This document shows, in pieces, positions 4,284 to 24,995 of a stretch of 25,180 bases of DNA. The stretch's first letter is position 1; every line of letters starts with the position of its first letter. Position numbers and translations under genes: made by a program. Source of the DNA: a virus; IMG/VR virus record IMGVR_UViG_3300048686_000885, positions 1 through 25,180 of that record; one strand, written 5' to 3'. The notes under the pieces were generated by a model. That model saw nothing but the letters and a program-made list of their open reading frames with translations. It searched no databases and was not told the origin of the DNA.

Positions 4284-4861
4284 GTTGCCGTGAGTCGGAA
4301 CTCATAAGTGCAGCTAATGACATCCCCGGATACCACCGAACGATCTCCGGGTGATTGGAAGTCTGCGGCACTGAATAACGTACCCGTCGTTCCTAAGATC
4401 GTATTGTTACTTGTTAGGAAAGCGCCACCTACCGTTGCGGTTGCGTCAATATTAAACACAGCCTTATTAGACGTGTTCGTTACTACCGAAGGATTGGCGT
4501 TTGTTGATGCGGCAAAAGTTGCCGCTGGTCTGGTTGCATTACTGTAGCAATCAATCTCTGTCCAGCCAGAGTGGGAAGACATTGTATCCGAAGCAGCCGG
4601 TGTGTTACTTGCAGCAGCACCGTATAAGCCCACATACCATGTTGTGATCTGCGCTGCTGAGTTTGCCAGTGCTGTGCCAGCCATGTACTGAAGACCGACG
4701 TTAACCACCAAGTTATCACCCTCAGCAGTCCACTTGAGGTTGCCATCTTTGTCATGGCACTCTGCATAGTACCTACCGCAGGCCACAGCCGATTCACCCC
4801 ACGATGTTTTAGCGGCTAACCCGCTAGAAACTTGATCACCCGCTTTTGCTTTTTCCATCAT
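4280..4861 (-). CDS. Tail/fibre-region structural protein (193 aa)
   Basis: The open frame extends upstream to 5008, but the start at 4861 is preferred because ATGATGG overlaps the stop of the upstream gene as ATGA, and the extra N-terminal part would lie wholly inside that gene. The protein begins MMEKAKAG and carries AKTSSWGESA-like and KWTAEGDNLVVNVGLQYM segments, then TWYVGLYG and a long Ser/Thr-rich beta region ending CTYEFRLTAT. This layout (a start near N-VGLQYMA, then a W-YVGLY strand) is common in small phage tail proteins of unknown role. It may be distantly related to the product of the gene before it, which has FKLALYYG in the corresponding place. A virion role is inferred from context. 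Confidence 0.8.
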   Translation of the reverse strand: MMEKAKAGDQVSSGLAAKTSWGESAVACGRYYAECHDKDGNLKWTAEGDNLVVNVGLQYMAGTALANSAAQITTWYVGLYGAAASNTPAASDTMSSHSGWTEIDCYSNATRPAATFAASTNANPSVVTNTSNKAVFNIDATATVGGAFLTSNNTILGTTGTLFSAADFQSPGDRSVVSGDVISCTYEFRLTAT

Positions 4862-8951: not shown

Positions 8952-9866
8952 TTAAGCGCCTTCGCTTCCATAGATGCCTCTTGGATCAGACCATCCAAAC
9001 GAATAACGCTCTCTTGCGCGATAGCGAACGTTCCCCGTATCGAAGTCGCCTTCGAAAGCGGTTTTGATCGGCGAGCGCTGGAACATCTTCAAACCGTTAG
9101 GAGCATCGGTCAAAAGGAACCATGCATCCACGTCGGTTAGGAAGTGGTTAACGGTATAACCCTGTGGAACCATGCCCATTGAACGCACCGCGTTAACGTC
9201 ATTGTCCGCTGTTCCAGGACGGAGCGTGGTCTTCATCAGACGCTCGGCCGTGAACTGAAGCTCTTTGGGTACAACCATCTTGGTTACCTGAATTGCAACC
9301 TTCAAACCACGTTCATCGGTGAACCCAGCCACATCGATGATGCCTTGTTCCAACGAGGTTTCGTTGAGATCTGAGGCAACAACAGGTGTGTTACTGAAGT
9401 TGGGGCCGAGTGCTGTGGGGTGTGCGCTGTTACACAAGGACACACCGTCACCGCCGTTATAAGAACCGGTGGTGTTGAAGGCGTTATTCAGGATGCCAGC
9501 ACCCTTCACCTGCTTGGTATTTGCCATGGAACGAGCAAGTGCCTTGGTGTAGCGAACCGAAAGACGGTCATAGAGGTTGTCCTCAATGGCTTCTTCGGTA
9601 AGCGCAAAGGCCAGAGCAATCGTCTCATGGGTATAACGAGCGGTGAAAGATTCCTGCGCGCTGTCGTAGTTAACGCCAGCACCTTCCTGCTTGACAGGAG
9701 CGGAACCAAAGCCGGTCAACATGACCTCTTCTTCAAACGCACGATCCGAATTTTCGATAGAGAAAATCGCTTCATGTTCGTTTTCGTAACGGTCATACTC
9801 CATGCCAAACAGCGCATTGAGTCCCGGCTCCAGTTCCTTGACTAGTTGAGCACGTGTAATTGCCAT
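8952..9866 (-). CDS. Major capsid protein, Mu gpT-like (304 aa)
   Basis: The sequence MAITRAQLVKELEPGLNALFGMEYDRY and FEEEVMLTGFGSAPVKQEGAGVNYDSAQE matches the opening of Mu gpT-type major head subunits, which have the HK97 fold. TARYTHETIALAFALTEEAIEDNLYDRL and YTKALARSM form the spine-helix region, and LCNSAHPTAL plus PNGLKMFQRSPIKTAFEGDFDTGNVRYRARERYSFGW form the C-terminal part. It has no N-terminal scaffold domain, which agrees with a separate scaffold gene upstream. ATG 9866 has GGGAG 7 bases before it. It is the last gene of the head block, followed by a strong terminator, which fits high-level expression. Identity is confident. Confidence 0.93.
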   Translation of the reverse strand: MAITRAQLVKELEPGLNALFGMEYDRYENEHEAIFSIENSDRAFEEEVMLTGFGSAPVKQEGAGVNYDSAQESFTARYTHETIALAFALTEEAIEDNLYDRLSVRYTKALARSMANTKQVKGAGILNNAFNTTGSYNGGDGVSLCNSAHPTALGPNFSNTPVVASDLNETSLEQGIIDVAGFTDERGLKVAIQVTKMVVPKELQFTAERLMKTTLRPGTADNDVNAVRSMGMVPQGYTVNHFLTDVDAWFLLTDAPNGLKMFQRSPIKTAFEGDFDTGNVRYRARERYSFGWSDPRGIYGSEGA

Positions 9867-11890: not shown

Positions 11891-12343
11891 TCACATGTGC
11901 AAAATATCAGCGGGATCATTGATAGTGGCCAAGATCTCATCATCATTAAGAATGCGAATCTCACCACCATCAATATTCATGCGCGCACCGGCATAACGAC
12001 CAAAAATAATCCAATCGCCTTTCTTGCACCACGCGCCATCTGGGAACTTCTCGCGATCACCGTAAGCCAGAGGGCCTACCTCCAACACATAGCCGCAAGT
12101 TGTTGTTAGTTGATTGCGTTCAACGGTTTGATCCGCCAAAGCAATGCCGCCTTTGCTCTTTTTTGCACCGCGATAAGGGAGAATCACGATCCGCCAGCCT
12201 GTTGGCTTCGGAATTCGACTTAATACGGATTCTTGAAGGTCATCGACTTTTAAATCACCGTCGTCGGTATAGGCATCTGTCAAAGTCGGAACTTTTTGCT
12301 CCGCTTCCTTTGCCCATTTTTGCTCTAAAGCAGTCACAGTCAT
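11891..12343 (-). CDS. GroES/Cpn10-like co-chaperonin (150 aa)
   Basis: Residues about 44-140 fit a GroES fold: PTGWRIVILPYRGAKKSKGGIALADQ, where the GGIALADQ stretch is the mobile-loop region, then TTCGYVLEVGPLAYGDREKF, WCKKGDWIIFGRYAGARMNI and GGEIRILNDDEILATI. The first 43 residues are an acidic extension not present in bacterial GroES (about 95 residues). In tailed phages such as T4 (gp31), a phage co-chaperonin replaces GroES so that host GroEL can fold the capsid protein. Here it lies between portal and scaffold, which fits this role. The frame opens at 12361, but ATG 12343 has AAGGA 7 bases before it. No GroEL is present in the window. Confidence 0.88.
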   Translation of the reverse strand: MTVTALEQKWAKEAEQKVPTLTDAYTDDGDLKVDDLQESVLSRIPKPTGWRIVILPYRGAKKSKGGIALADQTVERNQLTTTCGYVLEVGPLAYGDREKFPDGAWCKKGDWIIFGRYAGARMNIDGGEIRILNDDEILATINDPADILHM

Positions 12344-12353
12344 GTTGGTGTCC

Positions 12354-12539
12354 TTAGTCATCAGGGTTTTGCTTCAAAAGCTTGTGGATTTCAGCTTCCA
12401 CAAACGAAATACCCTCGATGCGGCCCATCAAATGCTTGTACTGCTCCATCGATACGACACGATTGGCTAAAACCATCGTTTCGGCGTCGGCTCTTAGCTG
12501 ACGAATACGCTTTAGTAGCGTTTCTGTGAACTCAAGCAT
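12354..12539 (-). CDS. Small helical protein between portal and co-chaperonin (61 aa)
   Basis: A charged all-helical protein (LEFTETLLKRIRQLRADAETMV, LMGRIEGISFVEAEIHKLLKQN) with heptad-like Leu spacing. The frame also opens at TTG 12551, but ATG 12539 has GGAG six bases before it and is preferred. Its stop lies 10 bases before the co-chaperonin start. Short helical genes near portals in other phages can act as packaging or head factors, but no function can be read here. Confidence 0.75.
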   Translation of the reverse strand: MLEFTETLLKRIRQLRADAETMVLANRVVSMEQYKHLMGRIEGISFVEAEIHKLLKQNPDD

Positions 12540-12607: not shown

Positions 12608-12751
12608 TTACGTTATCTTTACCTTTTTGAAGGCATCTTTACGATAAATCATCGTAGGTTTAGGTGCTGGAGGAGGGACAATACCCTCCTTTCTCGCTTC
12701 TCTAAGGTTTTTTTTCACAACTTTTTGTTGACTATTGCCTTTGCCTCGCAT
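12608..12751 (-). CDS. Small basic protein overlapping the portal gene end (47 aa)
   Basis: A 47-codon frame from ATG 12751 to TAA 12608, overlapping the last 20 bases of the portal gene in another frame. GAGG lies 8 bases before the ATG. The product is strongly basic (RGKGNSQQKVVKKNLREARK, then Pro-rich PPPAPKP, then YRKDAFKKVKIT), with no membrane segment. Without it, the 180 bases after the portal would be empty in an otherwise closely packed operon. The real status is likely but not certain, because such a short frame can occur by chance. Confidence 0.6.
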   Translation of the reverse strand: MRGKGNSQQKVVKKNLREARKEGIVPPPAPKPTMIYRKDAFKKVKIT

Positions 12752-15107
12752 TTTGAGCCCTCATTTGGTTAGATTGCGCCATTTGCATAACACGTGCTTG
12801 GCTTGCCTGCTGTTGTTGCGCTAACCGAGCTTGATCAATAGCCACATCATTCTGTTCGCGCTGCTGATCAAAGGCTAAACGCTGTTGATCCACGCCAATT
12901 TTGGCTTGTTCAACCTGTCCACGTTGTTGAATCTCGGCTTTTTTCAACTCAATCAAGGGATCGGGCTGCTGTTGGCCTTCACCAGATAACTGTGCCTGCA
13001 GTTGTTTCACTTCTTGGAAGAATTGCGCTACTTTTAAAGCAATCATGGCTTCTTTTTGCAGCGGCGAAACCAAGTGATCAGGATCTGTGCCGTATTGTTG
13101 GAACAATTCGGCTTCTGTTGCCTCTTCAGCTTTCACTTTAATGTGCTCAAAAATGTGTTTTTGCAACAAAACAGCCGCCTGCGGCATTGCTGCCATCATG
13201 GGAGATAAGCCAAAAAGCAGATGAGACAGGATGTGCGCATCGTGCTGCTGACCGGCAAATGCTTTTAAGCCAAAACCGTCCAATGCTTGCGCGTTTTCAC
13301 TGGCTGGATCTTTGGGTTGATCCACATTCTGGCTGTTAAGAAGCGCATCAACATCGCGAACGCCCAGCGCTTCATACATCCGACGGTAAGCTTCATACAT
13401 ATTGTGCATCTGCGGCGCACTTTGAGCGAGCTGCAACTCGGTTTGTGCCATCGTAATACGTTGCGCCACCGAGAAAATATTCGGATCAGACACAGGAAGG
13501 ATGTCTACCCGCTTATCAAAATCCCTGCGCTTGATCTTGCGTGACTCCCCGGGCACATCGTAAGGGTACTCATCCGGTAAATACTCAGCAAAACCTTCTG
13601 CTAAAAGCTGGAATTCAAGACGCTGCGCGTAGTGCAGGCGTTTGTGGATAGCCGACATCACACTTGAACCCTTCTCGAGCAGTGCAATCGTCGTTCCAAC
13701 CGCCGCATTTTGATTACTGTCGCCTACCTGCAAGTCTGTGATGCTCGCTAAACGACGCCCAGCATCCACACAAAAGCCTAAAAGCTGATACAGGGTCTGA
13801 CTTGGCTCTTTGTAAGGCAAGGGCAAAAGAGATGCCTGCAGTTCTGCACCTCCCGCATCCATATCTCGCCATTCCCCCGGCTTGATCGGCACATCGTCAT
13901 TTTCAATCCGAGCACCTTTGGCCTTAAATCCCGAAGGAAGATTATTAAGCGTGCCTGCGTCCGTCAGTTGACGCAGTGAGGAACCTGCCGTTTTGGCCAA
14001 ACCACCAATTAAATGCAAGAAACCAAGGCCATAGGCTCCCGGTCCTTGGACGAGCATGTAATGCACCCAATACTCTTTGCGCAACTTGAGATCATCTTTC
14101 TCTTTCCAGTTGCGGCGAACACCTACTACTTTGGTAGAGTTTTCATCAACCGTGATGACATAAGGCAGGCGAATGCCTGTGGGATCGCCATCCTCGTTTT
14201 TGTCCTCAAACCCCGGAAGGTCGTAATCAACCATAAACTCCAACAACTGCATTTCCTTGTCCTCGCCCGAGGGAGAAATGCCCGTTATCTTGTCTTGCGC
14301 TTCAGAGATCTGGGTCGTGTCATTAACGACCTCCGCTTGAGCACTATCTAAATACCGACCGTGGTACACGGCCTTGCGATAATCGTTCTCGGACATGAAG
14401 ATGCGGTGCGTGATTCGTCCGCACTTGCTCATGACCGGTGAACCGTTATAGGGTATATAAAGGTTATCTGGGAATACCGCAGGCGACACCATGCGCCCAA
14501 GATTTTCGTCGTAGTAAACCTTCTTGAATACCGATCCGCCGTAGCCTATGTAAAACAGCATCTGATCAAACTCAGGTGCATATTCAGGCATCTCATTCAT
14601 GAGTTGGTAATTCATGAAATCCTTGACCCGCTGCGCCTGCATGACCTTTTCACGCGTTTCTTTACCCAAAACCTGCGTGCGGACAGGACCTTCGGCAGGC
14701 AGAAGTTCTTTCAACGCCTGCGCCTGAAACTGCACAATAGCCTCGGTCAACAAAGGATGCTGCACGCCACACGCGCCACGGAAAGGTTGTGTGCGATCTT
14801 CGATCTTAAAACCAAGAAGATCCATGCCTTTGGCGTACTGTTGTTCCCAATCGCCCCGGGAACTTTTATCAGCGTCAAACAAAGCCATGAGATCACTTGA
14901 TATACGTGCCAGCACATCAGGCGGCAATACCTCTGCGAGGTTAGCGTCAAACGGTACTTCGCTATCCTCTTCTTCATCAAGATTAACCGTTACGCCACCT
15001 TCCTCATCAAACTCAATGGTGATTTCCGGTAAATCTTCCTGCTCAATTTCAACTTCCACCTCCCCTGTGGGAAGGTCCTCGATCCGCGTTGCTTTTTCAA
15101 TGGGCAT
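12732..15107 (-). CDS. Portal protein (791 aa)
   Basis: The portal ring is the head vertex through which DNA enters and leaves. An acidic start (EVEVEIEQEDLPEITIEFDEE) precedes DLMALFDADKSSRGDWEQQY and PFRGACGVQHPLLTEAIVQFQAQALKELLP, then a basic helical-beta core with FYIGYGGSVFKKVYYDE and VSPAVFPDNLYIPYNG, typical of long portals of podovirus-like phages. The last 150 residues are Gln-rich coiled coil (QQQRAQAR-like; LIELKKAEIQQRGQVEQAKI), as in portals with a barrel extension. AAGGA lies 6 bases before ATG 15107. The gene follows the giant virion protein and precedes the assembly genes. The identity as portal is strong; its subfamily is less certain. Confidence 0.87.
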   Translation of the reverse strand: MPIEKATRIEDLPTGEVEVEIEQEDLPEITIEFDEEGGVTVNLDEEEDSEVPFDANLAEVLPPDVLARISSDLMALFDADKSSRGDWEQQYAKGMDLLGFKIEDRTQPFRGACGVQHPLLTEAIVQFQAQALKELLPAEGPVRTQVLGKETREKVMQAQRVKDFMNYQLMNEMPEYAPEFDQMLFYIGYGGSVFKKVYYDENLGRMVSPAVFPDNLYIPYNGSPVMSKCGRITHRIFMSENDYRKAVYHGRYLDSAQAEVVNDTTQISEAQDKITGISPSGEDKEMQLLEFMVDYDLPGFEDKNEDGDPTGIRLPYVITVDENSTKVVGVRRNWKEKDDLKLRKEYWVHYMLVQGPGAYGLGFLHLIGGLAKTAGSSLRQLTDAGTLNNLPSGFKAKGARIENDDVPIKPGEWRDMDAGGAELQASLLPLPYKEPSQTLYQLLGFCVDAGRRLASITDLQVGDSNQNAAVGTTIALLEKGSSVMSAIHKRLHYAQRLEFQLLAEGFAEYLPDEYPYDVPGESRKIKRRDFDKRVDILPVSDPNIFSVAQRITMAQTELQLAQSAPQMHNMYEAYRRMYEALGVRDVDALLNSQNVDQPKDPASENAQALDGFGLKAFAGQQHDAHILSHLLFGLSPMMAAMPQAAVLLQKHIFEHIKVKAEEATEAELFQQYGTDPDHLVSPLQKEAMIALKVAQFFQEVKQLQAQLSGEGQQQPDPLIELKKAEIQQRGQVEQAKIGVDQQRLAFDQQREQNDVAIDQARLAQQQQASQARVMQMAQSNQMRAQNARQRQ

Positions 15108-15116
15108 GGTGTGTCC

Positions 15117-18100
15117 TTATTTGACGCGCAGATTAGCAGCAGGTAGTTGCCTCAACAAGGGTTTCGGCTTTGATATCTTTTCTGCGATAAACCGGTTAAG
15201 GGCTCCTGTCTCATAGGCCATAGGATCCATCGGTATATGAGGAGGCAGGTCCTTGGCATCCATTCGCGTTTGCCGTGGACCGGTCAACGCATCAAAAATA
15301 GCCATCATGCGCGTGTCGGGGAAAAGCTTGCGCATTTCCTTGTCTTGAGTCAAGAATTTACCGGTGCTTTGCTCCATGGCAGAAAGCGTGGAAAGCTGCT
15401 CTTCGAAAAGTCCCCGGTACTCACCCTGTCTGCGTAGCAATTCCTTAAGGCTTTCTTCCTTAAACTCTGCGCCAAAGACCGGTTCGCCAAAGAACTTCTC
15501 TAACTTATCTTTGTTCTTGACCATGTTTTGGATAAAAGACTCAATGGGCTTCCAATCTTTACCCAACAAATAATAAGCACGGTAGCTGTTGTCCTGCAGC
15601 ATCGGTGTCTTATAGTTAGGCTGCGGCCTTCCAAGAATGTCCCCACCCCTGAAACTCATGGAATGCTCAAGCTCATGGAGCATGGTCCGTTCACGTTGGC
15701 CCGGGGGCAACGCTTGATTAATCGTAATCAGATCGGGCGCACTACTTGCGACATATCCCCAAAGATCAGAATCAAGCGGCATATCCTGCGTTTCTACCTT
15801 GGGATTCATAGCACGCATATAAGCAGCAAGCTGGCCTGCCGAGCGACTGCGCGTAACATCCGGGGGCAACGGTTCTTGTTTCTCCTTTTCAGGAGGTTTG
15901 CCCATGCGTTGTAGCAAATCTTCCAGTTCCTTGACCGAACTAACACCCAAGTCCCTGGCGCGCGTATCAGCATATGTTTCACGTGGAACATCAACAGGAT
16001 CAAAGGTATCAACCATACCGCCATCGTTAAACTCTTCCGGTGGGCGTGGACGTTTTCCTTCCCCGTACATCCTTTCTACGGCTTTGTCAAAAGCATCCTT
16101 ATCCACGAACCGCTGCCAGGGACCGAACTCTTCCTCATTCCAGCCAAAACGACGGACATCCTCCAAGAACTTTATTTTATTCGGGGACTGTGAATCGGTA
16201 CGAGCAAGTTTTGCCTGTTCCAAGATCTTATTCGATACTTCCCAATCGCTTGAGCGGATGTAATCGCGCACTCGCGATAAAACTTCGTACTCGTTTTCCC
16301 TCTTCGTGCCTTTTGCTTTTACAGGAATTTCAGGATTATCATGCCTAAACATCATCTGTTCAATGATGGGTTTTGCACGAGAAGTATTAGCAAGCTGCTT
16401 TTCCGGATAAGAGGACAGGATCTGAACCAAGGGCTTTCCGTCACCACTCATCAAAACATGTAACTCACCTTCAAAACCGTATTTGGGTCCTGTGTAGCGA
16501 TCAATGAATTCATCTGTTTTAGTACACCATCCCGCATCACAGCCCACCATCCGGATAAATTCGCGATTGTTTTTATTGTTTACCAGATCGTCAGCCCTTA
16601 ACCAGCGACTGCCGTCATCGTAGTTTTTGTACAAAGGAACGCCATTGGCCACAGCGAGGGCCTTTTTACGTTCCTGCTCCTGCAGCCAGTTATCGTAAGC
16701 CTGAACTTTACGCACGGCCTGTTCCACGGAGGTCTTTTCAAGATCCTTTGGTGTCATGCGCAACGCATCGGGCATCACCGTATCGCTATTGATCATCTCT
16801 TCCAAGCGTCTGGAAAGATTTCCAAATCCAAGTGTCCGCTCAATATTCTTGTCCAATGCATAGATCGGCACATTCTCTGGAATCTTTTCAACCATTTTCT
16901 CAAATTCAGAATGGCGAAATGGTCTAAATATAGAACTCAATGTCTGGTGCCTTAAGATATCCTTATCGCCCGGCCTAATGCTGTAATCAACCAGCGTTTC
17001 CCAAGCTGCAGCCGGGGTTCCAGGCTCAAGTTGCGTTTTCTTTGCTTCAAAGCCACGCAGCCTTGAACCTATACGATTTAACTCCGCAACAGAACCATAA
17101 AGTGATTCCACATTGTTTAAATACATTGGATCGATTGGCGGCAAAATACCTTCTTCTTTAGCAAGCTTCAGTAACGGATCGCTCTCCGTTCCCATCTCAT
17201 TTTGGATGTATTTACCTAACTTGTTGGTAATCCATTTGTCCATCTCAACGGCTGGCTCAAGATTCTTGGCATATTGCGCAACTCGTTGCTCCGATAACCC
17301 TGCTTCGCGCAAGCTATCCAATTCTTCAGCCACATCGGCTAGACGTAATTCAGGATCCTGACCCCTAAACCGACTCGGACGAGCAGGGTCCAATATCATC
17401 TGTATATGCCGAGCAGGCCAATTACCGCCCTTTGGTTTCATAACGCCTGCGGCACCCAGAGCACCCAACCCTGCCAACACATCGGGTACAGCACCGGCAA
17501 ATTTTGCCGGTAGGGTGGCAGTGGGCATTAAACCCACACCAAGTGCCTGACCAATACGATAAGTTTCTGAAGGATTGGTCGGTGGACGGGGCGCGGCTCC
17601 TACAAAACCACCAATAAACTCCGCAGGATATTGAATCCCCGGAATAGGTGCCACCGTTTCCCGCTCCGAAGCACGGTCCACGGCCCGTTGATAACCAGGG
17701 GGTGTCTTAAACTGCTGTAAAAGCTGCGCGGCTCGCGGATCACCGCCTGTTTGCATGCGTACAGGCTCAACAGGAGCAGGGAAGGGGGATTGGTAGGACA
17801 AATCCAACGAAGCTAAAGCTGATGGGCGAGAAGGTTGAGCAAGATACTGCTCCGCTGCCGTCGGCTCGTTCTCATCCGTTTTTTCTTTTTCATCATCGGC
17901 TGCTAATAAACTAACAGCCAACGCCGCCTGATACGAAGCAGGTAACTCCGCCGACTGTACCAAAGGCTTAGCGGCTGGCAGTGGACGAGGCACGGACCGC
18001 GAAACACGTGTTACCGGTGGTGTCGTGGCCTCTTCAACAATAGGCGATGGCGTGGGGGTGGTAGCGGTGGCGACAACAGGAGCTGCTGCTACCATCGTTG

Positions 18101-18563
18101 CAGGAAACTTTGCATTTAAATTAGCCAGCACTTCGCCTGCTGTCTTTCCACGCAACTGCGGATTAGCACGCAATACCCTCGGTGCCACTAACGCCGATAG
18201 CGGCCGATCTTCCGGCGCATTGATCACCTTGATCGCCGTATCCGGGCCAAAAAAGTGCATGGCATACAACTCCGAGGGCCGTGGATCACGGCCCAAGGCT
18301 CGTTTGGCCCTCGTCGTATTATCAGCAAGTACAGTCACACCAACCCGTATATTCTCATCCGGATCCAACTGCTTATTCGGCGTTCCACCGTACCGCTTCC
18401 ACGTATCATCAATCACCTGAAAGAGCCCTTTGGCAGAAGATGTCTTTGCCTTGGCCTTGGGATTTAATGAACTCTCAAGCTCAGCAATACGCACTGCCAC
18501 ATCAGGATCAACCTGCTGCGCGACTGCCGCTTCACGGATTTTGGTGACAAGATCTTGAGCCAT
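15117..18563 (-). CDS. Giant virion-type protein: transglycosylase, WC domain and HEXXH motif (1148 aa)
   Basis: The N terminus (VDPDVAVRIAELESSLNP, then SSAKGLFQVIDDTWKRYGG) is a lytic transglycosylase domain at about 10-125; Glu30 in ELESS is the likely catalytic residue. A Pro/Ala-rich region follows (130-330) with one weakly hydrophobic Gly-rich stretch (LAGLGALGAAGV). Around residue 670 lies VGCDAGWCTKTDEF with YGFEGELHVLM and GKPLVQILSS, reminiscent of domains found in large polyvalent phage proteins. HELEH at 963-967 is a zincin-type HEXXH motif (TMLHELEHSMSFRGGD). The frame opens at TTG 18599, but ATG 18563 with MAQDLVTKI is preferred. Such proteins are usually packaged or injected and open the cell wall at entry. 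The gene contains a parS-like site at 15975-15990. Confidence 0.85.
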   Translation of the reverse strand: MAQDLVTKIREAAVAQQVDPDVAVRIAELESSLNPKAKAKTSSAKGLFQVIDDTWKRYGGTPNKQLDPDENIRVGVTVLADNTTRAKRALGRDPRPSELYAMHFFGPDTAIKVINAPEDRPLSALVAPRVLRANPQLRGKTAGEVLANLNAKFPATMVAAAPVVATATTPTPSPIVEEATTPPVTRVSRSVPRPLPAAKPLVQSAELPASYQAALAVSLLAADDEKEKTDENEPTAAEQYLAQPSRPSALASLDLSYQSPFPAPVEPVRMQTGGDPRAAQLLQQFKTPPGYQRAVDRASERETVAPIPGIQYPAEFIGGFVGAAPRPPTNPSETYRIGQALGVGLMPTATLPAKFAGAVPDVLAGLGALGAAGVMKPKGGNWPARHIQMILDPARPSRFRGQDPELRLADVAEELDSLREAGLSEQRVAQYAKNLEPAVEMDKWITNKLGKYIQNEMGTESDPLLKLAKEEGILPPIDPMYLNNVESLYGSVAELNRIGSRLRGFEAKKTQLEPGTPAAAWETLVDYSIRPGDKDILRHQTLSSIFRPFRHSEFEKMVEKIPENVPIYALDKNIERTLGFGNLSRRLEEMINSDTVMPDALRMTPKDLEKTSVEQAVRKVQAYDNWLQEQERKKALAVANGVPLYKNYDDGSRWLRADDLVNNKNNREFIRMVGCDAGWCTKTDEFIDRYTGPKYGFEGELHVLMSGDGKPLVQILSSYPEKQLANTSRAKPIIEQMMFRHDNPEIPVKAKGTKRENEYEVLSRVRDYIRSSDWEVSNKILEQAKLARTDSQSPNKIKFLEDVRRFGWNEEEFGPWQRFVDKDAFDKAVERMYGEGKRPRPPEEFNDGGMVDTFDPVDVPRETYADTRARDLGVSSVKELEDLLQRMGKPPEKEKQEPLPPDVTRSRSAGQLAAYMRAMNPKVETQDMPLDSDLWGYVASSAPDLITINQALPPGQRERTMLHELEHSMSFRGGDILGRPQPNYKTPMLQDNSYRAYYLLGKDWKPIESFIQNMVKNKDKLEKFFGEPVFGAEFKEESLKELLRRQGEYRGLFEEQLSTLSAMEQSTGKFLTQDKEMRKLFPDTRMMAIFDALTGPRQTRMDAKDLPPHIPMDPMAYETGALNRFIAEKISKPKPLLRQLPAANLRVK
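15975..15990. promoter_or_regulatory. parS-like palindrome inside the giant virion protein gene
   Basis: The 16 bases are TGTTTCACGTGGAACA; the other strand reads TGTTCCACGTGAAACA, which matches the parS sequence I know from the Bacillus subtilis spo0J gene. It is an exact copy of the one at 20137-20152. It encodes DVPRETY in the gene, so it does not disturb coding. Confidence 0.6.
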
Positions 18564-18604
18564 GGCTGTCCATTGTACAAGGGTGGATCGGGGCGTCAAT
18601 GCGC

Positions 18605-20125
18605 CTAATAATACTCAAGCTGCACGCCAAAGTATTCACTTTCCTCCTGGTCATCGTCCTCAAGGCTAATAAAATTACCCTGACGAAACCGCATCAAAGC
18701 CATCACCGCCGCATCGACCTGATCATCATGACTGCCGTTGGGAAAAGCAGCACACTCTTCCACCAAGTCCTGCGCCCAATCGTATACCTCGGGATACCAC
18801 ACCATGCCCGATTCAAGGACCGGGGCCACCGCGTTCGCCCTTGCAATCTTATCAGTCCCTGTTCGCCGACCCCCTGGCGAATACATCGTCACAGGAATCC
18901 CCATCTTCCTTAACTCATGCTGCAAGGGCGTTCCCGTGGCCTTGGCCTCAATCAAAACATTATCTGGACGCCAATGCATGTACTCCTCCTTGGCAATCCG
19001 CTTAAGTTCAGGAAAGTCCCAGCGACCTTTCCTTACACCTAGTAACATTAACTGAGGACCCGAATCCTGATCCTGCTGAAACACACCCCACGTACTGATC
19101 ACCGAGAAGTCAGCCGTCTCTTTCTTACTATAAGCCGTATCGTAAGTCTGTATCAAATAAGAACAATGCGGGGGTTCCTCACCACGCCACACGCGCCACC
19201 AATCGCGCTTTAATATCGCTCCCTCATCGTTGGTCGGTTGCTGCTGCCACTGCGCGTTCCATTTTTTCAAGCCAATAGAAAACTTGACCTTTTCTAACTC
19301 ATCAAGGCTCCAGTACTCGGGCCACAAGGGAGTATTGGATGGCAGAATGGCTGGGAACTCAAGCACCTCCCATTGATCGGCTTTTAGATTACTCTGCATT
19401 CTTAATAACCGACCGGCCACGTCATCGGTCTTCCAACGCGTGTTAATCAAGATAATTGAACCGTTCGGTTGCAATCGCTGACGAGGACCGGACTCGTACC
19501 ACTCCCACGTGTTCTGCATCGCCGTGTCTGACAAAGCATCCTGCTCGTCCAGGATGTCGTCCAAAATAATAATGTCGCCACCGCGACCGGTCATCGCACC
19601 GCCTTTACCAATAAAAAAGGCTTCCCCTCCCTGGGCCGTGTTCCACCGGCCAGCAGCCTTGGAGTCTACCGACAACGTCGTATCAGGGAAGAGCTCACGG
19701 TACGAGTCGCCCTCTACAAGATTCCTAATCATCCGGCCAAAGCGCTGTGCAAGCTCTGCGGTGTGCGATCCAACGATAAGCTTTGCATCAGGCTTTTTGC
19801 CCATCACATAAGCAGGAAACAGATAGCTACCAAGCTGTGACTTACCGTGCCGTGGCGGCATCGCGATGATCAAGCGTTTGGTTTTGCCTTGAATAACCCG
19901 ATCAAAAGCACTCGCTATACGGCGATGATGCTCGCCTATCAACATCTCAGGCCATACGTATTTAGCGAAGTCTATGAAAGTGGCAGTGGCCCTTTCTCGC
20001 GTCTCAAGGGCCAAGAGCCGCAGCTCAAGCCTCAGGCGTTCTGCTTCTACATCATGATCGTCGTTCAAAGGATGTCCAGAGGTTTTGAAAAATTTAAATA
20101 TACCCCCGGGGTATGCCTTTTTCAA
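18605..20125 (-). CDS. terL: Terminase large subunit (506 aa)
   Basis: The packaging motor that cuts and pumps phage DNA into the prohead. The ATPase part has a Walker A at 89-96 (MPPRHGKS), TAELAQRFGR as the adenine-side motif, and Walker B with DD at 189-190 (GGDIIILDDILDE). The nuclease part has the RNase H triad: Asp329 (TYDTAYSKKETADFSVI), Glu393 (NVLIEAKATGTP) and Asp467/Asp468 (GSHDDQVDAAVMA). Length is normal. The start is uncertain: the first in-frame start is TTG 20125, with no purine-rich ribosome site, and an upstream stop overlaps a parS-like site. The next candidate is TTG 20068. The small terminase gene is 3.9 kb away, separated by accessory genes. Confidence 0.93.
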   Translation of the reverse strand: MKKAYPGGIFKFFKTSGHPLNDDHDVEAERLRLELRLLALETRERATATFIDFAKYVWPEMLIGEHHRRIASAFDRVIQGKTKRLIIAMPPRHGKSQLGSYLFPAYVMGKKPDAKLIVGSHTAELAQRFGRMIRNLVEGDSYRELFPDTTLSVDSKAAGRWNTAQGGEAFFIGKGGAMTGRGGDIIILDDILDEQDALSDTAMQNTWEWYESGPRQRLQPNGSIILINTRWKTDDVAGRLLRMQSNLKADQWEVLEFPAILPSNTPLWPEYWSLDELEKVKFSIGLKKWNAQWQQQPTNDEGAILKRDWWRVWRGEEPPHCSYLIQTYDTAYSKKETADFSVISTWGVFQQDQDSGPQLMLLGVRKGRWDFPELKRIAKEEYMHWRPDNVLIEAKATGTPLQHELRKMGIPVTMYSPGGRRTGTDKIARANAVAPVLESGMVWYPEVYDWAQDLVEECAAFPNGSHDDQVDAAVMALMRFRQGNFISLEDDDQEESEYFGVQLEYY

Positions 20126-20136
20126 GAAGAAGGGGG

Positions 20137-20152
20137 TGTTTCACGTGGAACA
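20137..20152. promoter_or_regulatory. parS-like palindrome directly before TerL
   Basis: TGTTTCACGTGGAACA, 12 bases upstream of the first possible TerL codon and identical in all 16 positions to the copy at 15975. A ParB-type protein bound here would cover the TerL leader. The minus strand reads ATGTTCCACGTGAAACAC, so a 19-codon frame starting MFHVKH begins here; MFHVKH is also the peptide that bacterial parS sites encode at gene starts. Confidence 0.65.
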
Positions 20153-20731: not shown

Positions 20732-20735
20732 AACG

Positions 20736-20746
20736 CTATCCTTTCT
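20736..20746 (-). promoter_or_regulatory. Shared ribosome-binding cassette AGAAAGGATAG (one of five)
   Basis: The same 11 bases, always followed by exactly 4 variable bases and ATG, precede five genes: 20736-20746, 21158-21168, 22406-22416, 23246-23256 and 23645-23655. The AGAAAGG part can pair with CCUUUCU at the 16S 3' end. No other gene in the window has it. Confidence 0.9.
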
Positions 20747-21153: not shown

Positions 21154-21173
21154 AACGCTATCCTTTCTAAATT

Positions 21174-22401: not shown

Positions 22402-22436
22402 TGCACTATCCTTTCTGAATTGATCCGGTTGATTTA

Positions 22437-23241: not shown

Positions 23242-23274
23242 GACTCTATCCTTTCTAGTGGGTTACAGCAGAGT

Positions 23275-23640: not shown

Positions 23641-23702
23641 CTCTCTATCCTTTCTGGAAAAACTTAATTAACAACAGCAAAGCTATGCTATCACAAAAAA
23701 TC

Positions 23703-24101
23703 TTATGATGCAAGCGCCTCGTAAAATTCACGCCAAACCATGCTTTTTAGTTCCCATTTTTTAAACGGTGGCAAGTCGATTCCAACACCATACAACTGCA
23801 TCGCACTAATACTTTCGTATAGCAGCAAAGTATCGGGAAACGACTTTGTCGCAAGTTTCCACACCAAAATAAAGCCCGGACGGCCAAGCCGCCCATGGCG
23901 CATGTGAAAAGCGACCTGATGAGGGCGCAACTCAACCTTTCGGCCGGTTGCGACCTTCAACTCAAGCATCACAAAGCGACTTCCCACACCGATCAGCATG
24001 TCGGGAATGCCAAGATTCACGCGGTTTTCAATGCGCTCGATGTCGCACCATTCCCGCAGCCCCTGGCGTACCTTCTCGGAAAGCTTGGCCTCAGGCGTCA
24101 T
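23703..24101 (-). CDS. PD-(D/E)XK nuclease (132 aa)
   Basis: NLGIPDMLIG (Asp34) followed by FVMLELKV (Glu47, Lys49) is the D-x12-E-x-K core, then RPHQVAFHMRHGRLGRPGFILVW supplies Gln62 and a late strand, as in Holliday junction resolvase-like and VRR-NUC phage nucleases. The N terminus MTPEAKLSEKVRQGL is the usual opening. The frame also has ATG 24122 and 24113, but ATG 24101 gives that opening and overlaps the TerS stop by 11 bases. It directly follows the small terminase, so a packaging-linked or DNA branch-resolving role is possible. The active site is intact. Confidence 0.82.
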   Translation of the reverse strand: MTPEAKLSEKVRQGLREWCDIERIENRVNLGIPDMLIGVGSRFVMLELKVATGRKVELRPHQVAFHMRHGRLGRPGFILVWKLATKSFPDTLLLYESISAMQLYGVGIDLPPFKKWELKSMVWREFYEALAS

Positions 24102-24756
24102 TCTTGGGCACATCCACGTCAAAAACGCTCAGATCCACATCCTCAAACGTCGGGTCATAAGGTGGATCGGCTCCCTTATCCGCACTGGCAAGGACCTTTC
24201 CTGTCTCAGCGTCGATCAAGGCCTTCGGTGGAGGGCCCCCATAGAGCTGTTTAAGCTCGTCCAGTTTGCGTTGGACCTCCTCCTTGGACATCGAATCAAT
24301 CGTGCCATGGCGGATCTCTTTACGGTCGATGTAGATGGTTCCAAGAGCCTGCCCCCTGCGGTATTCCGCCTGCACAGCAGCAGCAAAGGCTCCTGCTTCA
24401 AGTGCTTTATCACGTATCGTCTGTAAGTCCCTCATGTGCCTTTCGTAGGTGGTGTTGTACTTCATTGCCAACTCAGCCCGATAGGCCTGGATCGCAGCCA
24501 CGACATGTGGACAAGTCTTCGGATTGGTCAATCGCCTAGCTTCTGCCTGAGCACTGCCCTCAGAATAGCCTGCACGCAGCGCAGCTTCACGCAACGTGAC
24601 TCTCCCATCGTTTGACACATACTCCTGCACAAAACGCCACTGCTGAGGCGTTAAGGCCTTCTTAGGGCCTTTTAAGGGCCCTACGTCCGTTGCCAAGCGC
24701 TGTTGGACCTTCGGCGGAATGATCGGGGGCGTTGACCAGATGTCTTTCGTACTCAC
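24091..24756 (-). CDS. terS: Terminase small subunit (about 221 aa)
   Basis: Recognises the phage DNA for packaging. LTPQQWRFVQEYVSNDGRVTLREAALRAGY (residues 36-64) and SEGSAQAEARRLTNP form the helix-turn-helix region of TerS proteins, followed by a long helical oligomerisation region (YERHMRDLQTIRDKALEAGAFAAAVQAEYRR) and an acidic tail (DPTFEDVDLSVFDVD). The longest frame opens at ATG 24777, but GTG 24756 overlaps the previous stop as GTGA and has GGAGG about 6 bases before it, so I prefer it. It is not adjacent to TerL, which is unusual. Confidence 0.85.
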   Translation of the reverse strand: MSTKDIWSTPPIIPPKVQQRLATDVGPLKGPKKALTPQQWRFVQEYVSNDGRVTLREAALRAGYSEGSAQAEARRLTNPKTCPHVVAAIQAYRAELAMKYNTTYERHMRDLQTIRDKALEAGAFAAAVQAEYRRGQALGTIYIDRKEIRHGTIDSMSKEEVQRKLDELKQLYGGPPPKALIDAETGKVLASADKGADPPYDPTFEDVDLSVFDVDVPKNDA

Positions 24757-24995
24757 GACACCCTCCATAAACGCCATCCAGAGCCATCAGAAGCCTTTCT
24801 GAGCGTAAAACGCCATTCAGGGCGGTGACTACCCGTAAAACGGATTGCAGCGACTCTGGCGCTGAATGCAGGGCCTTGCTGGGCAAAGAAAATGCTGTCG
24901 CCCACGCCCATGTCTTCAAAGGGATATTTTGAAGTCCTTTTGACGACCGGGAGGGGAATATCGGTATCGATTTGTAATCTCATGGTAGCCATCAT
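24753..24995 (-). CDS. Small conserved hypothetical protein (80 aa)
   Basis: The sequence LQIDTDIPLPVVKRTSKYPFEDMGVGDSIFF, then RFTGSHRPEWRFTLRKASDGSGWRLWRV, is a compact beta protein. I recall similar (KYPF-x-x-M-x-VGDS then F-x-x-R-x-x-GWR-WRV) small proteins in many phages; function is not known. The frame opens at ATG 24995, with ATG 24992 and ATG 24983 (MRLQIDTDIP) as alternatives; no ribosome site separates these. A promoter is right upstream and the stop overlaps the TerS start. Confidence 0.78.
   Translation of the reverse strand: MMATMRLQIDTDIPLPVVKRTSKYPFEDMGVGDSIFFAQQGPAFSARVAAIRFTGSHRPEWRFTLRKASDGSGWRLWRVS

Follow-up and report, generated by a model that had tools for sequence, protein, structure and literature searches.

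Why does a tailed phage carry two exact copies of parS, the centromere-type site of bacterial chromosomes? We analyzed a stretch of 25,180 bases (the window), which is the whole record of this genome and a fragment of a tailed phage of ∼60 kb. A scan of the entire window found TGTTTCACGTGGAACA exactly twice, at 15975–15990 and 20137–20152, and no other copy, as an earlier note on this DNA had reported with both coordinates correct. After shuffling of the window, 0.21 matches to the 16-mer are expected at three or fewer mismatches. On the opposite strand, TGTTTCACGTGGAACA reads TGTTCCACGTGAAACA, which fits the universal chromosomal parS and which we take to be an accepted form of it. Both copies match the 16-bp chromosome-type pattern (TGTTNCACGTGAAACA / TGTTYCACGTGRAACA) exactly. 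They also match the chromosomal consensus TGTTTCACGTGAAACA that PMC10197239 uses, following Livny 2007, so that the earlier recognition of parS on the other strand was correct. The mutual identity of the two copies means little, since both match one consensus and their contexts are unrelated.

All main genes of the window lie on the minus strand. They encode the terminase small subunit (terS, 24091–24777; phrog_51, PF03592), the terminase large subunit (terL, 18605–20068; phrog_38, E = 4.6e-112), a large virion protein with an N-terminal SLT lytic transglycosylase domain (15117–18599; PF01464, E = 3.4e-12; phrog_4067), the portal protein (12732–15107; phrog_1216, E = 5.5e-39), with which the late operon continues downstream of the sites, the phage co-chaperonin GroES that is a hallmark of the family (11891–12361; phrog_3188, E = 1.7e-19), and the major head protein (8952–9866; phrog_371, E = 1.1e-23). 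The terL ORF is open to 20125, and alignment to the ATG starts of relatives indicates that translation probably begins at the TTG at 20068. Rather than a start codon, the TTG at 20125 more probably represents the −35 of the terL promoter, because a promoter scan predicts a sigma-70-type promoter at 20125–20097 on the minus strand (TTGAAA-17-TATATT), with its −35 TTGAAA at 20125–20120, a 17-nt spacer, and its −10 TATATT at 20102–20097. At 20097–20136, before terL, lies an element, CCCCCTTnTTn..GGGGTATATTT..TTCAAAAC, that many relatives share in their leaders; a GGG..TATA[TA]T element was present in 40 of the 156 distinct leaders compared. The conserved element is a probable late promoter and may in addition serve in packaging or regulation.

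Site 1 (20137–20152, assigned to neither strand and reading TGTTCCACGTGAAACA on the minus strand) precedes terL, its end lying 11 bp before the predicted −35. With the promoter at 20125–20097 and the start at 20068, it would lie upstream of the promoter and outside the transcribed leader; the earlier note had rightly put the site in front of terL, but its claim that the site covers the leader probably does not hold. Site 2 (15975–15990, likewise unstranded) is inside the transglycosylase gene, where it is translated as V-P-R-E-T within a variable linker; this gene is also the commonest location of the site in relatives. Elsewhere in the window, AGAAAGGATAG and a few further bases directly precede the ATG of five successive minus-strand genes between terS and terL (20733–20746, 21155–21168, 22403–22416, 23243–23256, and 23642–23655), and AGAAAGGATAGAGA is the family's most recurrent 14-mer with unrelated flanks. 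This motif resembles a ribosome-binding site of extended form and unusual uniformity, or a leader shared by a set of middle genes.

On TerL kinship and gene order, we grouped the window with DSL-LC04, a circular phage of 61.5 kb predicted by its authors to be virulent, and with the pelagiphages HTVC027P and HTVC023P. The kinship holds for TerL, portal, GroES, and capsid, all in the same order. The family that bears parS is a large one and consists of apparently virulent, mostly freshwater and marine phages. Terminal repeats of 127 bp in G047 and G062 and of 77 bp in G079 fit circular complete genomes of 60–62 kb; each of these complete genomes has one exact site, and G043 has two. Many members have no exact site (for example L003–L005, L022, L046, and DSL-LC04), and the site is therefore inessential for the group as a whole. 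Near-matches occur as well: G079 has a one-mismatch parS at position 4295 (TGTTTCACGTGAAACG), and HTVC027P (MN698241.1) has one at 16412 (CGTTTCACGTGAAACA). These one-mismatch sites may be working variants or decaying copies. Cumulative GC skew in four relatives of ∼61 kb gave origin positions that were inconsistent between genomes. Assigning hosts through bacterial genome bins was uninformative, the TerL relatives being scattered over many unrelated phyla.

The sites are far more numerous than expected. In 187 family loci (2.29 Mb), TGTTYCACGTGRAACA occurs at 57 exact and 18 one-mismatch sites, compared with averages of 0.025 and 0.135, respectively, in the same loci for 200 control palindromes of the same make-up as parS, from which permutations able to match parS had been excluded. 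Among contigs of the nearest TerL relatives, 31 of 80 have parS at one mismatch or less, and the reversed-motif control has none. Throughout IMG/VR, the 16-mer matched at least 120 stretches and the reversed 16-mer matched 1; among the 80 matches listed, ∼20 belong to this phage family (as judged by shared proteins or by TerL/portal similarity), and the next-largest linked group numbers 3. When recurrent 14-mers in unrelated flanks were counted agnostically, only two motif families came out on top, namely parS and the ribosome-binding-site-like motif. Chance origin, which the earlier note had dismissed for the two copies, is ruled out by the shuffles, the control palindromes, and the reversed motifs. 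Outside the family, many IMG/VR contigs (L083–L162) hold the 16-mer with no ParB gene (ParB_N in 1 of 49), and other phage groups may likewise carry parS. Some of these contigs resemble bacterial chromosome more than phage, L126 with its 11–12 clustered sites among them; matches outside the family were left uncounted as phage parS.

Wherever the site falls inside the large transglycosylase gene, it is translated as V[PS]RET or V[PS]RGT, as it might be if the protein required a conserved peptide, DVPRETY, and the palindrome were a by-product of its codons. The codon evidence contradicts this explanation, which we regard as exceedingly improbable. At homologous places in 81 loci, V[PS]RET was never found in synonymous codons; other V/I/L-x-R-E-T/S strings in these loci are few and lie in unrelated frames. 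In an alignment of 15 linkers, V, R, E, and T each use a single codon, whereas most neighboring invariant residues use two to five, and the only amino acid variation in the peptide, P versus S, corresponds to the C/T position (Y) that parS tolerates. Sites occur outside genes too, and the preferred reading frame has another explanation, in that motifs ending in GAAACA bring a TGA stop into frame 0. The earlier note had proposed checking relatives for conservation beyond codon needs and had named a kept peptide with a lost palindrome as the adverse result; we saw the reverse, V[PS]RET being always in parS codons and never without them. Given the unrelated flanks, the fixed codons, and the nonhomologous positions, the family, as far as its sequences tell, selects the palindrome as DNA, independent of coding context.

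On the TerL tree, parS sites fall in several separate clades and at several places. The commonest location is about 435–650 nt after terL, in the next gene; in one clade of 18 members, 17 have the site in the linker after terL (435–615 nt downstream); in the remaining one, L067, the leader holds it. In other lineages the site lies 1.8–2.2 kb upstream or in the terL leader, and in L015, L017, L018, L072, and L081 it occupies a short ORF about 6–7 kb downstream. In L341 (also L112; IMGVR_UViG_3300008110_000371), three sites lie 3.2–5.0 kb after terL, at coordinates 14481, 15162, and 16200, each in a disordered-looking linker. The leader layout varies, with the site 31 nt downstream of where the −10 begins in L067, L075, and L306 and upstream of the terL promoter in the window; L074 has a decayed half-site where those three have an intact palindrome. 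The closest kin of the window, L003–L005 (TerL identity up to 91%), have a homologous leader that does not contain the palindrome, and their linker is replaced at the place of site 2. All 46 sites of the nonredundant loci are within −2.2 to +8.5 kb of the terL start, with zero sites in the 381 kb lying 3–20 kb upstream of terL; site density is 206 per Mb in the terL leader and 191 per Mb just after terL. This bias toward the terL region is no more than suggestive, the site counts being phylogenetically linked.

We then considered which protein would read the site. Profile searches found no ParB_N (PF02195) in 22 records, no HTH_ParB (PF17762) in 21, and no ParA (PF13614) in 15; tyrosine integrase was absent from the 16 records searched for it. 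Complete genomes were included in each case. Neither the parB nor the parA of a phage-encoded partition cassette of the P1, N15, or RedRock type was thus present in the relatives searched. Since ParB_N, HTH_ParB, and ParA were all absent from these records, the most likely reader is the ParB of the host, although a divergent phage ParB-like protein with no recognizable domains may read the site instead. The earlier note had allowed for either host ParB or the phage's own; the former stands, and the latter has become unlikely now that the genes it proposed looking for are missing from relatives that include complete genomes.

Our preferred explanation, to which we assign a probability of ∼0.8, is that the 16-mers are predicted docking sites for host ParB, maintained by selection on a phage that has no partition genes. 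This reading draws on the identity with parS, the DNA-level selection, the recurrence in independent places around terL, and the lack of a recognizable parA, parB, or tyrosine integrase in complete relatives. ParB is a CTP-dependent clamp. Host ParB would load at the phage's parS site and slide over the neighboring late region, and the host segregation machinery (ParA and SMC) would then handle the phage genome as it does an origin region. The phage might benefit, for example, if its genomes were held on the nucleoid or retained over divisions during a slow or carrier infection. Our first choice for the purpose of the site is the positioning or segregation of phage genomes, but we hold it tentatively, at somewhat less than even odds. 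A pure segregation role does not need the preference for the terL region.

That preference would be explained if host ParB, nucleated next to the terL promoter or reaching it by spreading from a site no more than 2 kb away, repressed terL together with the structural operon at an early stage of infection, giving the phage a free timing repressor. This is possible, if rather unlikely. The clustering of sites at the terL leader and just after terL, together with the empty 381 kb upstream, favors such control, as does the spacing in the leaders (11 bp before the −35 in the window, 31 nt after the −10 in the three relatives), because ParB bound in either layout would presumably hinder RNA polymerase. 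There is also a precedent, PMC5521831 reporting that ParB represses the genes and promoters adjoining parS3 and parS4 in Pseudomonas aeruginosa. However, the commonest location is in the gene after terL and not in a promoter, some sites are 4–8 kb downstream, and the clustering in the late region could reflect places that tolerate a 16-mer, among counts that are linked by phylogeny. The two roles could also be joined, with ParB, at a parS standing at the head of the late operon, both positioning or passing on the phage genomes and silencing the late genes until induction, as a switch between carrier state and lysis; we consider this combination speculative and the odds to be against it.

The sites might instead be decoys, with replicated phage copies titrating ParB off the chromosome and disturbing host segregation and division to the phage's gain. 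Replication would multiply even a single site per genome, and phage ParA and ParB would be expected to be absent; however, most complete genomes keep one or two sites where more would serve a decoy better, the location near terL is left unexplained, and loss of ParB is nonlethal in P. aeruginosa, according to PMC5521831. We judge a decoy unlikely. Far less probable is that a phage protein reads the palindrome, for instance the small terminase at a pac site, and that the likeness to parS arose by convergence. Clustering around terL would suit a packaging site, but all 16 bases and the Y/R degeneracy equal those of host parS, even though the TerLs are only ∼50–60% identical to that of the window; packaging sites are not expected to be so conserved, and the site is missing in many members. 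Uses of any other kind seem quite improbable to us.

Down to the C/T position that is tolerated, the site is the 16-bp palindrome that serves chromosomal ParABS in Bacillus subtilis, Caulobacter, P. aeruginosa, and Burkholderia chromosome 1. Here, however, it lies on a phage genome with no parA or parB beside it, and proximity to the origin is known for the chromosomal type only. The extrachromosomal prophages P1, N15, and mycobacteriophage RedRock likewise combine a phage genome and a centromere site with no integrase, but they encode their own ParA and ParB and use their own unrelated parS, which in RedRock consists of eight 8-bp direct repeats (PMC7157519); in the present family neither gene was found, and the site is that of the host chromosome. 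Engineered lambda-parS imaging phages also have a parS-marked genome with ParB supplied by the cell, but they are laboratory constructs in which CFP-ParB made in Escherichia coli serves as a label (PMC13190303), whereas the site of this family is natural. Among the nearest named phages, DSL-LC04 and the HTVC023P-like pelagiphages share the gene order of the window (terS, terL, large protein, portal, GroES, and capsid) with TerL identities of 50–63%. DSL-LC04 yielded no exact parS, nor did the first 50 kb of HTVC023P or of 023Pt_psg01, and HTVC027P has only its single one-mismatch copy.

In the openly available journal papers searched, we found no earlier report of virulent phages that conserve a chromosome-type parS. 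ParS and ParB are among the most conserved DNA–protein pairs of bacteria. Phages equipped with partition functions were previously known to supply their own, whereas this family carries the host's site alone. A parS match in a viral contig is thus no proof of bacterial contamination. A natural family with only the host site implies that ParB is a host factor exploited by phages, and the sites provide a testable handle on the placement, inheritance, or quiescence of phage genomes in aquatic bacteria.
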